From positions 62,001 through 126,000 of the IMG/VR virus record IMGVR_UViG_3300046744_000223: 64,000 nt of DNA; one strand, 5' to 3'. This DNA comes from a virus. The translations under genes were made by a program, and so were the position numbers. The notes below the pieces were generated by a model. It saw only the letters and a list, made by a program, of their open reading frames with translations. It did no database searches and had not been told where the DNA came from. This document shows positions 8,014 through 43,901 of the stretch, piece after piece; the stretch's first letter is position 1, and each line of letters starts with the position of its first letter.

Positions 8014-8025
8014 TAAGAATCTTAG

Positions 8026-8098
8026 AGCGAAAGACGAGATTCGAACTCGCGACCCCCACCTTGGCAAGGTGATGCTCTACCAGCTGAGCTACTTTCGC
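8026..8098 (-). tRNA. tRNA-Gly(GCC)
   Basis: A complete 73-nt cloverleaf: acceptor GCGAAAG/CTTTCGC, TA at 8-9, D arm AGCTC, anticodon loop TTGCCAA giving GCC, T loop TTCGAAT, discriminator T. No encoded CCA. Normal in all conserved positions, which makes the neighbouring aberrant tRNA-like elements stand out. Confidence 0.95.
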
Positions 8099-8104
8099 TT
8101 ATTG

Positions 8105-8176
8105 AGCGGAAGGGTGGCTCCGCCCCACCATCTTTGAACTGGATGTTCAACGAGTTTCTCTTAACTCCTCTTCCGC
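8105..8176 (-). ncRNA. Glycine-tRNA-like cloverleaf RNA A (non-canonical loops)
   Basis: The 72 nt fold exactly into tRNA geometry: acceptor GCGGAAG/CTTCCGC (7 bp), 2 nt, D-type stem GAGT/ACTC with an 8-nt loop, 1 nt, anticodon-type stem TTGAA/TTCAA with loop CATCCAG, 4-nt variable loop, T-type stem GGTGG/CCACC with a 7-nt loop, discriminator T. Positions 34-36 read TCC (Gly), and G1-C72, C2-G71, C35, C36 and U73 are the usual glycine identity elements. But U33 is A, the D loop lacks GG, and the T loop is GGCGGAG instead of TTCGAAT. It is probably not a translating tRNA. Six bases separate it from tRNA-Gly(GCC). Confidence 0.7.
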
Positions 8177-8181
8177 ATTAT

Positions 8182-8241
8182 AGAGAATGATAACCCGTAG
8201 CTTAAATTGAGCGGCCTTATCCCAATCTTTAACCATTCTCT
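8182..8241 (-). ncRNA. Possible structured RNA between the two cloverleaf elements
   Basis: A 60-nt interval closed by a perfect 8-bp stem (AGAGAATG / CATTCTCT). Inside, GATAA/TTATC and CCG/CGG can pair around a TA-rich loop. It fills almost the whole gap between the two glycine-tRNA-like elements. It is not a tRNA: it is too short and has no T arm. It may be a processed spacer RNA or a third small RNA. Confidence 0.4.
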
Positions 8242-8244
8242 TTG

Positions 8245-8316
8245 AGCGGGAGGTTGGTACTGCCCCAACACCTTCTATCTGGATGATAGACGACTTTCTT
8301 TTAAGTCTTCTCCCGC
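8245..8316 (-). ncRNA. Glycine-tRNA-like cloverleaf RNA B (non-canonical loops)
   Basis: A second 72-nt cloverleaf with the same dimensions as RNA A: acceptor GCGGGAG/CTCCCGC, D-type stem GACT/AGTC, anticodon-type stem TCTAT/ATAGA with the identical loop CATCCAG, T-type stem GTTGG/CCAAC with loop GGCAGTA, discriminator T. All four stems differ from RNA A yet remain fully paired, which is covariation evidence for a maintained structure. The same key tRNA bases are missing (U33, D-loop GG, TTC in the T loop), while glycine identity elements are kept. Confidence 0.7.
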
Positions 8317-8389
8317 GTTATTGTTTATACAATATACAACAATTTTTTGAATAAAACAAATAAAATATAAAATACTTGACTGCGAATTG

Positions 8390-8474
8390 CGGAAGATATA
8401 GGATTCGAACCTATGGTACATTGCTGTACGCTGGTTTTCAAGACCAGTGCATTCGACCACTCTGCCAATCTTCC
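8390..8474 (-). tRNA. tRNA-Ser(UGA)
   Basis: An 85-nt class II tRNA: acceptor GGAAGAT/ATCTTCC, long variable arm GTACAGCAATGTAC, anticodon loop CTTGAAA giving TGA, T loop TTCGAAT, discriminator G. No encoded CCA. Confidence 0.95.
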
Positions 8475-8942: not shown

Positions 8943-8947
8943 AAATA

Positions 8948-9031
8948 AGAGTAGTCGTTAGGATACGGAGTCCTATTAATAGTAACTTACATTTACCCCT
9001 GCAGAGGTGTACTAAACTTTTTACCCACTCT
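8948..9031 (-). ncRNA. Possible structured RNA between tRNA-Glu and tRNA-Arg
   Basis: 84 nt closed by AGAGTGG/CTACTCT (7 bp including one G-U). Internal hairpins are ACCTC/GGGGT with loop TGCA and TAGGA/TCCTA with a 7-nt loop. It spans the gap from tRNA-Arg to tRNA-Glu almost exactly. It has no tRNA T loop, and the last hairpin is not stacked on the closing stem, so it is not a standard tRNA. Its closing stem and first bases resemble those of the 8182-8241 element. Confidence 0.4.
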
Positions 9032-9034
9032 ATG

Positions 9035-40943: not shown

Positions 40944-43901
40944 TTAATCTTCCTTTACAATTTTTTTATTAAATCGTGTACCATGGTGTTCAATTGATAG
41001 GAAATAAACACCATTTGCTAATGATGACATATCAATTGTTCGTTCTTTAGAATTTTCAACAATCAATTTACCCATAAAGTCGTATAAAGTATATGTAATA
41101 TCCAAGGTAGTTCTGATATTTAATGTATTTGTTGTTGGGTTAGGATACACAACAATATTTTTAAAGTCAATATCATCAATACTAAGAGTACCATTGACAG
41201 TAGCACAATAATCATACAGATATTGACAATCAGTGTCCCACGAATTAGTACAACAATACTCGTCTACATCAATTACCCAAGCGTAACATGGGTCATTTAA
41301 CCAATATGGGTTACCAGGCCCATCTATACACCCAGCATCATATAAACATGCCGTAGTGTCAGAAACATTAGCATTTGGGTTATAATTATGAGCATTTGGG
41401 TCAGTACAACCATATATTGGGGTAATACAACTACCATTATCAGTATTAGCTAATGGGTTGTAGTTAAGTGACGTTGAATCAGTACATCCATAGATAATTG
41501 GAATACATGGGTTTGAAAAATCAGTAGCCGATACTTGATTTGTATTAGCATCAGGATTATAGTTAAATGAGTTAACATCCATACACCCATAAATGTAAGG
41601 AACACAAGTTCCATTATCAGTATTAGCTAATGGGTCAAAGTTAAACGAAGTTGAATCAGTACAACCATACACTCTAGCGATACACGACCCGTCATCCGTG
41701 TTAGCTAATGAATCGTAATTATAAGATGTTGGGTCCGTACACCCATAAATTACAGGAACACATGAACCATCGTCCGTGTTAGCTAATGCATTATAATTAA
41801 ATGAGGATGGGTTTGTACAACCATAGATATAAGGAATACAAGTACCTGACGTATTTGCTAATGGGTCGTAATTCCACATTGTTGAATCCGTACAACCTAC
41901 TTTAATAGCTATACAAGTATCAGGCGTATTTGCATTAGGGTTGTAATTAAATGACAATGGATTCATACATCCTAAAATAACAGGAATACACCCACCATCA
42001 TCGGTATTAGCTAATGAATCGTAATTAATAGATGTTGAGTCGGTACATCCGAATACTTTTTCGATACAAACATCACCAAATGTTGGTTGTGAATCAACTC
42101 TTTGAATTATGGGGAATTGTAATGTAGTTGCTCCCCAAAACGGAACATCTACAATAGTATCACCTTCAGGACCATACAACGTATATGCTATCTGAGCGAT
42201 TGAGTTTTGAGATTGAGTCGTTGTAAATAGGTACAAATCAATTGGTTCATAGATGTTTAAAGGTACATCAAACGTTAATTCATAACCATCATTTGGTCCC
42301 ATTTTAAATTGAGGAGACAAGTTATCACCTTGTTTGATACCTAACCAAGTACCACCCCAACCATTTGAGGCGCCATCTTTTATTTTTAAGGTATAATCGC
42401 CAGTCATTATCTCACTGGTGTTAGCGGTATCTACATAGTTGAATGCTGACGTGTCAGTACATCCTACTATTCGGGCTGGCCCACACGTACCCGTGTCTAT
42501 TGTAGCACTTGGATTGTATGTGGTTGAGAATGGATTCATACACCCATAAACATCAGCTGCGCCGGAGGAACATATCCCTCCAGTACTAAATTGTGGGGTC
42601 GTAAATTGATAACCAAAGTTACCACTTGGAATTGTATCGGATAACGACCATAATAGATTACCTGAACAATCATATACTTTTAAATCACCATCTACTTGAC
42701 CACCAAATAAAGTACCATTTAAACCATCACCATAAGAATCGTTAATTACAATATCTACTAATACATTTGTATCAACACAAATGTAATGTGATATAGCTAT
42801 ACCTGGTGATGCGCCAGAATACGTCCCTTGAGATGCTGTATATACTGCTCCGTTATTGTCATAAAGAATCCAACTTGATTCACTACCATAGTTATCGGGA
42901 GTGAATTGTACGTCTAAGTAAGTTTCACTTGAAGAACAAGAAAGTGTATCTGCTGGATTCCCTATACACTTCCCATCACTTATTGTAGCCCATGGGTTGT
43001 ATTCGGCAGAAGTGGTATCAGTACATCCTATAATATCAGCACAATCTAAACACTTTTCCCAACAATTAGTATCTAATACTACTGATGTTCCATCTACAAT
43101 AAGATTTCTATTTGTAAACCCTGCGGCATCTAATAAGAAACAAGTAGCGTATGGGTTTTGATTGTTTTGCATATTTGGTGGTAACTCTTGGTCAACCCAG
43201 TTATCAACTGAGTACTTCCATAACCAACCTGGATTGTTTAGTATATCAATAGTACCTGTCCAAATACCATCACCATCTGAATCAGATAAAGAATCCGCTA
43301 TACCACTCCAACTATTAAACTGCCCACTTACATAAACTTGAGAGAACGTGTCATTATAAGAGTTCATATCTACTGCAAAAGTTACAGGATATTTACATTG
43401 ACCATTATTAATATTAGCATTAGAGTCGTAAGTTGAAGATAATGTATCCATACAACCTGCAAATGGTGGTGGTTGTGATAGGAGATTGACAGTTGTATCG
43501 TATGAGTAAACTGAGTTTGAACCACTAAATAACCCTAATGTCATTGGGTCTATATTTACAAATGTATCTTGAGTTGCGTTTCGTAACCATACAACCGGAG
43601 GTACACCTTGGTTATCCCACCATCTAGTTCTATTAGAGTTAAGTATTATCTTAACATCACCAGTATCACAATTTAAAATAGTGTAGTTGTAAGTACTTGG
43701 ATTAGTTAAGGAAACGTAGTCTTTGTAGTATAATGTATCGTTACCTTGCTTTATTAAAATTGACTGGTCGTTTGAATATACATTTCCACTGGTGAATATG
43801 TATCTACCAAATTCTACTCTTAACTCAAACCAACTTGTACCTTGTGCTAATGTTACAGTTGGTAATAACAATAGTAATAAATTAATTAAATACTTTTTCA
43901 T
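40944..43901 (-). CDS. Large secreted repeat protein with T9SS sorting domain
   Basis: A 985-residue protein: signal peptide (MKKYLINLLLLLLPTVTLAQ), a beta-rich N-terminal half with several domains, then about thirteen imperfect 24-27-residue repeats of the type GCTDstsxNYdplANtddGSC, each with two Cys, mostly at about residues 560-870. The last about 75 residues (VVYPNPTTNTLNI, then NGVYFLSIEHHGTR) match the type A sorting domain of the Bacteroidetes type IX system. It should be exported to the host surface. Likely an adhesin; the repeats may bind glycans or metal. Confidence 0.85.
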   Translation of the reverse strand: MKKYLINLLLLLLPTVTLAQGTSWFELRVEFGRYIFTSGNVYSNDQSILIKQGNDTLYYKDYVSLTNPSTYNYTILNCDTGDVKIILNSNRTRWWDNQGVPPVVWLRNATQDTFVNIDPMTLGLFSGSNSVYSYDTTVNLLSQPPPFAGCMDTLSSTYDSNANINNGQCKYPVTFAVDMNSYNDTFSQVYVSGQFNSWSGIADSLSDSDGDGIWTGTIDILNNPGWLWKYSVDNWVDQELPPNMQNNQNPYATCFLLDAAGFTNRNLIVDGTSVVLDTNCWEKCLDCADIIGCTDTTSAEYNPWATISDGKCIGNPADTLSCSSSETYLDVQFTPDNYGSESSWILYDNNGAVYTASQGTYSGASPGIAISHYICVDTNVLVDIVINDSYGDGLNGTLFGGQVDGDLKVYDCSGNLLWSLSDTIPSGNFGYQFTTPQFSTGGICSSGAADVYGCMNPFSTTYNPSATIDTGTCGPARIVGCTDTSAFNYVDTANTSEIMTGDYTLKIKDGASNGWGGTWLGIKQGDNLSPQFKMGPNDGYELTFDVPLNIYEPIDLYLFTTTQSQNSIAQIAYTLYGPEGDTIVDVPFWGATTLQFPIIQRVDSQPTFGDVCIEKVFGCTDSTSINYDSLANTDDGGCIPVILGCMNPLSFNYNPNANTPDTCIAIKVGCTDSTMWNYDPLANTSGTCIPYIYGCTNPSSFNYNALANTDDGSCVPVIYGCTDPTSYNYDSLANTDDGSCIARVYGCTDSTSFNFDPLANTDNGTCVPYIYGCMDVNSFNYNPDANTNQVSATDFSNPCIPIIYGCTDSTSLNYNPLANTDNGSCITPIYGCTDPNAHNYNPNANVSDTTACLYDAGCIDGPGNPYWLNDPCYAWVIDVDEYCCTNSWDTDCQYLYDYCATVNGTLSIDDIDFKNIVVYPNPTTNTLNIRTTLDITYTLYDFMGKLIVENSKERTIDMSSLANGVYFLSIEHHGTRFNKKIVKED
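41330..42070 (-). repeat. Repeats in the adhesin gene (about ten contiguous units)
   Basis: A continuous part of the gene made of repeat units of about 75-80 bp encoding GC.(D/N)....NY....ANt..g.C. Units differ in several positions, so the duplications are not recent. Confidence 0.7.

Follow-up and report, generated by a model that had tools for sequence, protein, structure and literature searches.

Paired glycine-tRNA-like RNAs with a coordinated alternative set of elbow bases in a phage tRNA array

The window, that is, the whole 64,000-nucleotide stretch of DNA analysed here, belongs to a virus record of 172,940 bases. Nearly all of its long open frames and all five of its ordinary tRNAs lie on the minus strand, along which the array runs tRNA-Arg, tRNA-Glu, tRNA-Gln, a small gene, tRNA-Ser, copy B, copy A, and tRNA-Gly(GCC) (Table 1). 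Copies A and B are separated by a 68-nt spacer. The original prediction described them as 72-nt cloverleaves with the exact spacing of real tRNAs and fully paired in all four stems, with a normal tRNA-Gly(GCC) immediately beyond copy A; both elements, their pairing, and the neighbouring tRNA were found as described.

Table 1. Features at and around the two copies, in window coordinates
Feature	Position	Strand	Basis
Ordinary tRNA-Gly(GCC), six bases 3' of copy A	8025..8098	-	ARAGORN; Rfam tRNA 68.3 bits
Copy A (downstream copy), same family as copy B	8105..8176	-	R1 94.4 bits; cloverleaf
RNA3, third conserved structured RNA, between the copies	8182..8241	-	15 relatives; absent from Rfam
Copy B (upstream copy), putative alternative-elbow tRNA-Gly-like RNA	8245..8316	-	R1 covariance model 95.0 bits; cloverleaf; no Rfam match at E<=10
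Bacteroidota-type promoter-like sequence TTTG-N19-TATATTGT, just upstream of copy B	8329..8360	-	Read from sequence
Ordinary tRNA-Ser(UGA), upstream neighbour in array	8389..8474	-	ARAGORN; Rfam

Each copy has cloverleaf stems of 7, 4, 5, and 5 bp and an unpaired N73, as in a canonical tRNA gene. Copy B reads GCGGGAG AA GACT TAAAAGAA AGTC G TCTAT CATCCAG ATAGA AGGT GTTGG GGCAGTA CCAAC CTCCCGC T (D-loop TAAAAGAA, anticodon loop CATCCAG, T-loop GGCAGTA), and copy A reads GCGGAAG AG GAGT TAAGAGAA ACTC G TTGAA CATCCAG TTCAA AGAT GGTGG GGCGGAG CCACC CTTCCGC T (D-loop TAAGAGAA, anticodon loop CATCCAG, T-loop GGCGGAG). Both carry A33 in place of the canonical U33. Neither is called by ARAGORN, and neither was matched in an Rfam search of the local region at E<=10, the RF00005 gathering score not being reached. 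When folding energies were checked against dinucleotide shuffles, both copies beat the shuffles, copy A modestly (z=-2.0; 8 of 200 shuffles as good) and copy B well (z=-3.5; 0 of 200).

Elsewhere in the window, positions 40944-43901 (minus strand) encode a 985-aa virus protein with a type IX secretion C-terminal sorting domain (PF18962, E=3.5e-15), which is unexpected in a phage protein. The promoter-like sequence upstream of copy B is close to the Bacteroidota promoter form. This domain and this promoter-like sequence make a member of the Bacteroidota the very likely host. Upstream of copy 1 in the relatives, 15 of 49 distinct sequences fit a relaxed promoter form and 6 of 49 fit the strict form TTTG-N17-22-TAnnTTTG.

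RNA3 combines a 10-bp terminal stem, a second stem with the loop ATAARRCCG, and a 3' ACCGG-type motif (ACGGG in the window copy). It occurs at the window locus and at L002, L004, L006, L010, L012, L015, L018, L020, L026, L050, L055, L057, L060, and L061; over these 15 relatives, pairing in the terminal stem is complete (100%), and 6 of its 10 pairs have changed on both sides. The ATAARRCCG loop and the ACCGG motif, both constant, could form a pseudoknot, and RNA3 has no match in Rfam. At seven loci (L006, L012, L017, L022, L023, L055, and L060) copy 1 is followed by a small lipoprotein-like open frame and then, before a tRNA-Thr, by a conserved motif, GTCTAGCC...GGGTTTT, perhaps a further structured RNA. 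The 91-nt spacer between tRNA-Arg and tRNA-Glu in the window (8943-9033, minus strand) has a 7-bp terminal stem enclosing a 5-bp hairpin whose loop is 7 bases long; it folds no better than shuffles (z=0.23) and is not common to L004.

Pattern scans of IMG/VR and a covariance model placed the family of copies A and B in 43 virus records, all of which carry one to three copies, usually two. A first pattern, made up of the D-loop and anticodon loop without the T-loop, matched 26 stretches in IMG/VR, all but one of which are true cloverleaves. A second, in which the D-loop was left free, returned this set again together with two close relatives and chance matches. Because the D-loop-free pattern recovered the same set, conservation of the D-loop TAARAGAA is real and not just a product of the search. 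The full collection of 64 elements (47 distinct) came from a third, looser pattern, and across this collection the loops TAARAGAA and GGCRGNN are nearly frozen (43 records). The look-alike pattern matches L014 and most of L031-L048 were set aside as chance.

The covariation first seen between the two copies extends across this family. The alignment of the 47 distinct sequences has 99.8% of its pair cells paired. Two-sided changes occur at 13 of the 21 pairs, and in 203 cells both partners are changed, where 64 would be expected. On four of five measures, no shuffle out of 500 was as good as the alignment, and sliding the pairing abolishes the signal. Homologues with compensatory stem changes, whose absence would have refuted the original prediction, therefore exist. 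That the copies are pseudogenes or chance cloverleaves, a reading that the only moderate lead of copy A over its shuffles in single-sequence folding might favour, is extremely improbable and is ruled out by covariation, with compensatory changes in all four stems among the 47 distinct homologues, and on this point the earlier judgement that these are not pseudogenes holds. Copies A and B are real, selected, glycine-tRNA-like RNAs.

Outside these virus records, blastn with window-family consensus queries gave no real match to named phages or plasmids. Among 84,980 bacterial and archaeal species, the loose pattern produced nine matches, one of which sits at the edge of its stretch, and none of the eight fully readable ones forms a cloverleaf. 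An R1 search of 11 genomes around G051, run without a positive control, was empty.

The consensus and tested identity elements of glycine tRNAs are G1-C72, C2-G71, U73, C35, and C36, together with the G10-Y25:G45 triple (PMC9976931). Among the 47 sequences there is no variation at G1, G3, G10, C25, C35, C36, A37, A44, G45, or U73, and a single exception at C2; C25, C35-A37, and A44-G45 are among the positions of the retrieval patterns, and G1, C2, G3, G10, and U73 lie outside them. The retention of glycine identity noted for the two copies (G1-C72, C2-G71, U73, C35, C36) is thus borne out in nearly all members of the family, which also keep the G10-C25:G45 triple. Position 34 is U in 37 sequences and A in 10, and position 33 is A in 26, U in 19, C in one, and G in one. 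RNAalifold shows an extra pair between positions 32 and 38 of the 47 sequences, C-G in 46 and U-A in one, and the relatives L110 and L125 have A32-U38 as well as C14-G21 in place of U14-A21. With 32-38 and 14-21 pairs visible in the alignment and these relatives, the window branch probably has an anticodon loop narrowed to five bases and a D stem lengthened to five pairs. A swapped U8-A14 pair, in the form A8-U14, was also considered; C14-G21 in L110 and L125 points rather to 14-21 pairing.

Glycine codons in the window are GGT (566), GGA (201), GGG (113), and GGC (58). An ordinary tRNA-Gly(UCC) is also present in some relatives (L054, L059, L065, and L066), and the reading of GGA therefore does not simply fall to the copies alone.

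Three contacts define the tRNA elbow: 18-55, 19-56, and 54-58 (PMC7912444). In both copies, G18-U55 is replaced by A18-G55 and U54-A58 by G54-G58, and G19-C56 is retained. A18, G19, G54, G55, C56, and G58 are present in all 47 sequences, G19 and C56 being the only canonical elbow bases kept; part of the T-loop was included in the retrieval patterns, though not in the first. The absence of U33, the D-loop GG, and the T-loop TTC was correctly noted for both copies, with the qualification that G19 and C56 themselves are present.

Whether bases at these contacts change together was also assessed independently of the patterns, in every distinct tRNA that ARAGORN called at the fetched loci (482 parsed). 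At 18/55, 463 of these phage tRNAs have G18 with U or C55, 15 have A18 with G55, two have A18 with U or C55, and none has G18 with G55. G55 is accordingly accompanied by A18 in 15 of 15 cases, against 0 of 463 with G18 (Fisher 1e-26, a value that overstates independence because the sequences are related, and counts that are not frequencies because the loci come from tRNA-like queries). Contact 19-56 is G-C in 470, A-U in five, and U-A in one, and contact 54-58 is U-A in 463, A-U in 13, A-A in four, and G-G in two. The five A19-U56 cases have the T-loop TTTGA; the A54-U58 forms are ATCGT with G18 and AGCRT with A18.

The same swap was found well beyond the window family. A pattern for what are here called class II tRNAs (D-loop AAAAGTA, U33, and GGGCRGTAC) gave at least 120 matches in IMG/VR. 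Among the matches listed, 73 of 80 loci (62 distinct) are full cloverleaves, and the other seven are mostly near-misses of the same kind. The swap occurs, among these matches, in at least 38 distinct glycine tRNAs, with anticodons UCC (27) and ACC (11), and in at least 24 distinct tRNAs with other anticodons: UGG (8), UUG (4), GUG (3), GAU, UGU, and UAC (2 each), and UUU, GCA, and GGU (one each). The identical D-loop/T-loop set AAAAGTA/GGCRGTA is therefore combined with eleven different anticodons among the matches listed. Loci L155-L232 include alternative-elbow RNAs with at least Pro, Gln, His, Ile, Thr, Val, Lys, and Cys anticodons, mostly unseen by ARAGORN. A T-arm pattern blind to the D and anticodon arms returned glycine tRNAs that have U8, A14, U33, and the ordinary anticodon loop CTTCCAA together with the D-loop AAAAGTA and the T-loop GGCRGTA. 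The class II pattern had no match in 798 Pseudomonadota and Bacillota genomes; Bacteroidota genomes were covered by the loose window-family pattern only.

BLAST links class II to the tRNA-His of Streptomyces phages, annotated in Jay2Jay and Warpy and unannotated in Coruscant, and to an alternative-elbow tRNA-Gly(ACC) with an encoded CCA in Pelagibacter phage Mosig (L272 1501-1574; MT647606.1 7852-7779), which is annotated as a 31-residue protein, Mosig_000011. Rfam scores the class II RNAs of L113 and L121 as tRNA, at 41-43 bits. At L170, L106, and L126, an alternative-elbow tRNA-Gly(UCC) belongs to a large tRNA set in which ARAGORN finds no ordinary tRNA-Gly(UCC), which fits replacement. ARAGORN also reports a tmRNA at L185 2717-3050 (+) and, in a second phage contig, tRNAs with a CUA (amber) anticodon at L173 435-508 and 12366-12441 (+).

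The original prediction held that the copies lack what the elbow requires, and this was also the starting view of the present analysis. It was dropped given the coupled swaps in class II and ARAGORN-called tRNAs: G19 and C56 are invariant, the A18-G55 and G54-G58 changes are coupled and recur in phage tRNAs of other isotypes, and, since the elbow contacts covary in phage tRNAs, the idea that the elbow cannot form is most likely wrong. The L shape of the copies is most likely kept. A non-exhaustive search of the open-licence literature found no description of the alternative elbow set.

Intermediates connect the family with ordinary tRNAs. For instance, L050 5035-4964 (-), with D-loop TAGTAGTA and T-loop TGCGATT, has A18 and G55 and still U54 and A58, and L061 5445-5519 (+) has the canonical elbow loops TAGGGTA and TTCAAAT (Rfam tRNA, 46.7 bits) together with an eight-base anticodon loop, CATTCCAG, and is called tRNA-??? 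by ARAGORN. R1 scores fall from 82-99 bits in the window family through 63-82 in near relatives, 49-59 in class II glycine tRNAs, and 35-43 in other isotypes to 28-31 in canonical tRNA-Gly. These graded intermediates and the score gradient indicate that the copies descend from a tRNA-Gly. In comparison to bacterial tRNA-Gly(UCC), to which the intermediates lead, the window family shares the cloverleaf lengths, the GCG...CGC acceptor with U73, C35 C36 A37, and G10-C25 with G45. It differs in having A18-G55 and G54-G58 for G18-U55 and U54-A58, U14-A21 or C14-G21 pairing with A8, and a Watson-Crick 32-38 pair with position 33 free, and the window copies have no Rfam tRNA match. Class II phage tRNAs (the Jay2Jay and Warpy tRNA-His and the Mosig RNA) likewise have the A18 G19 D-loop and the T-loop GGCRGTA but, unlike the window family, retain U8, A14, U33, and an ordinary anticodon loop. 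By these comparisons, the window RNAs are a derived Bacteroidota-phage branch of a largely unrecognised group of alternative-elbow phage tRNAs.

The reading favoured here, whose probability we put at about even, is that the copies are glycine-tRNA surrogates that can be charged by GlyRS and whose elbow has been rebuilt to evade host factors that read the elbow or the anticodon loop. Covariation supports an exchange, in a descendant of tRNA-Gly, of G18-U55 for A18-G55 and of U54-A58 for G54-G58, with G19-C56 kept; the window branch is altered further, its alignments showing position 14 paired with 21, position 32 with 38, and position 33 free. The RNAs would be transcribed from their own promoter, trimmed as tRNAs are, and given a CCA end. 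Charging with glycine by the host GlyRS is predicted from the conservation of all known bacterial glycine identity elements. G18, U54, and U55 are the sites modified by TrmH, TrmA, and TruB, and the swap removes all three and alters the surface touched by tRNA-reading enzymes. More tentatively, tRNA-cutting defence nucleases, toxins, and modification enzymes might then neither recognise nor destroy the surrogate. Evasion of host tRNA nucleases has been proposed for phage tRNAs with altered anticodon loops (van den Berg et al. 2023, PMC10264068). The changes there are in the anticodon loop, and the window family also rebuilds the elbow and D stem; a changed elbow surface together with an altered anticodon loop fits an enzyme-insensitive surrogate, in line with that proposal. 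Against the surrogate reading, the elbow change may reflect neutral compensatory drift among phage tRNAs under relaxed selection, which would need no escape benefit, and an ordinary tRNA-Gly(GCC) or (UCC) often coexists.

The missing U33 and the closed loop argue that the window branch may decode poorly or not at all. The loss of U33 and the Watson-Crick 32-38 pair, through which decoding may be lost, would favour decoys: non-decoding mimics of glycine tRNA, charged or uncharged, that tie up GlyRS or a toxin or nuclease aimed at tRNA-Gly. Glycine identity is conserved and decoding features are not (position 33 is variable and 32-38 is closed by C-G, U-A, or A-U), the copies occur two to a genome with their own putative promoter beside an ordinary tRNA-Gly, and TacT-type GNAT toxins read U73 and G71 (PMC9976931). 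Against this, U33 and a normal anticodon loop are retained in the related class II RNAs, which have the look of decoders, and the target is putative. For the window branch, decoys are a serious rival explanation, though a rather unlikely one.

Under neutral compensatory drift, equivalent sets of elbow pairs would replace one another under relaxed selection, and the copies would be odd glycine tRNAs that still decode. The elbow pairs of the ARAGORN-called phage tRNAs are indeed partly independent of each other (54-58 as U-A, A-U, A-A, or G-G; 18-55 as G-U, G-C, or A-G). Drift would not readily account for the recurrence of one exact set with eleven anticodons among the matches listed, for the near-frozen TAARAGAA and GGCRGNN loops over the 43 records of the window family, or for the loss of U33 and of the open 7-nt loop in many copies, and is unlikely.

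The position of some relatives suggests leader or processing elements, in which tRNA-shaped punctuation would be cut by RNase P and RNase Z, freeing downstream RNAs or messages. The Mosig relative begins right past a terminator-like hairpin and ends about 25 nt upstream of the sliding-clamp start codon, and the L113 relative follows a manA RNA just before an open frame. At that locus (L113 3263-3005, minus strand), the manA RNA (RF01745, 181 bits) ends exactly at the start of the alternative-elbow tRNA-Gly(UCC). Such a role is very unlikely and leaves the conservation of C35, C36, A37, and glycine identity unexplained.

Staphylococcal cell-wall tRNA-Gly departs from the standard D-loop and is used outside translation, and the copies, with charging identity and no decoding identity, might likewise donate glycine to a non-ribosomal reaction. 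The likeness is one of general features, no FemAB-type glycine transferase was seen here, and the swap is not glycine-specific. The FemAB-like domain PF13480 is absent from nine of the longer virus records, which may be incomplete and whose enzyme could be supplied by the host, and is present in 10 of 14 control genomes. The copies are most improbably glycine donors.

A bolder combination of these ideas, offered as a conjecture and thought rather improbable, is that phages possess a second self-consistent elbow used for many amino acids, and that the Bacteroidota-phage glycine branch serves as a non-decoding, charged glycyl-RNA decoy against tRNA-directed defence.

The G18-U55 and G19-C56 elbow contacts are treated as near-universal, and gene finders rely on them. 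A coordinated alternative elbow that occurs with many anticodons would mean that phage tRNA repertoires are under-counted, because ARAGORN misses such RNAs, Rfam misses those of the window type, and the Mosig one is annotated as a protein. The alternative-elbow RNAs may also serve as natural compensatory tertiary mutants for probing elbow recognition by ribosomes, RNase P, modification enzymes, and tRNA-cutting defences. Why phages carry tRNAs, an old question, would become testable with the ordinary and the remodelled glycine tRNA of a single genome.
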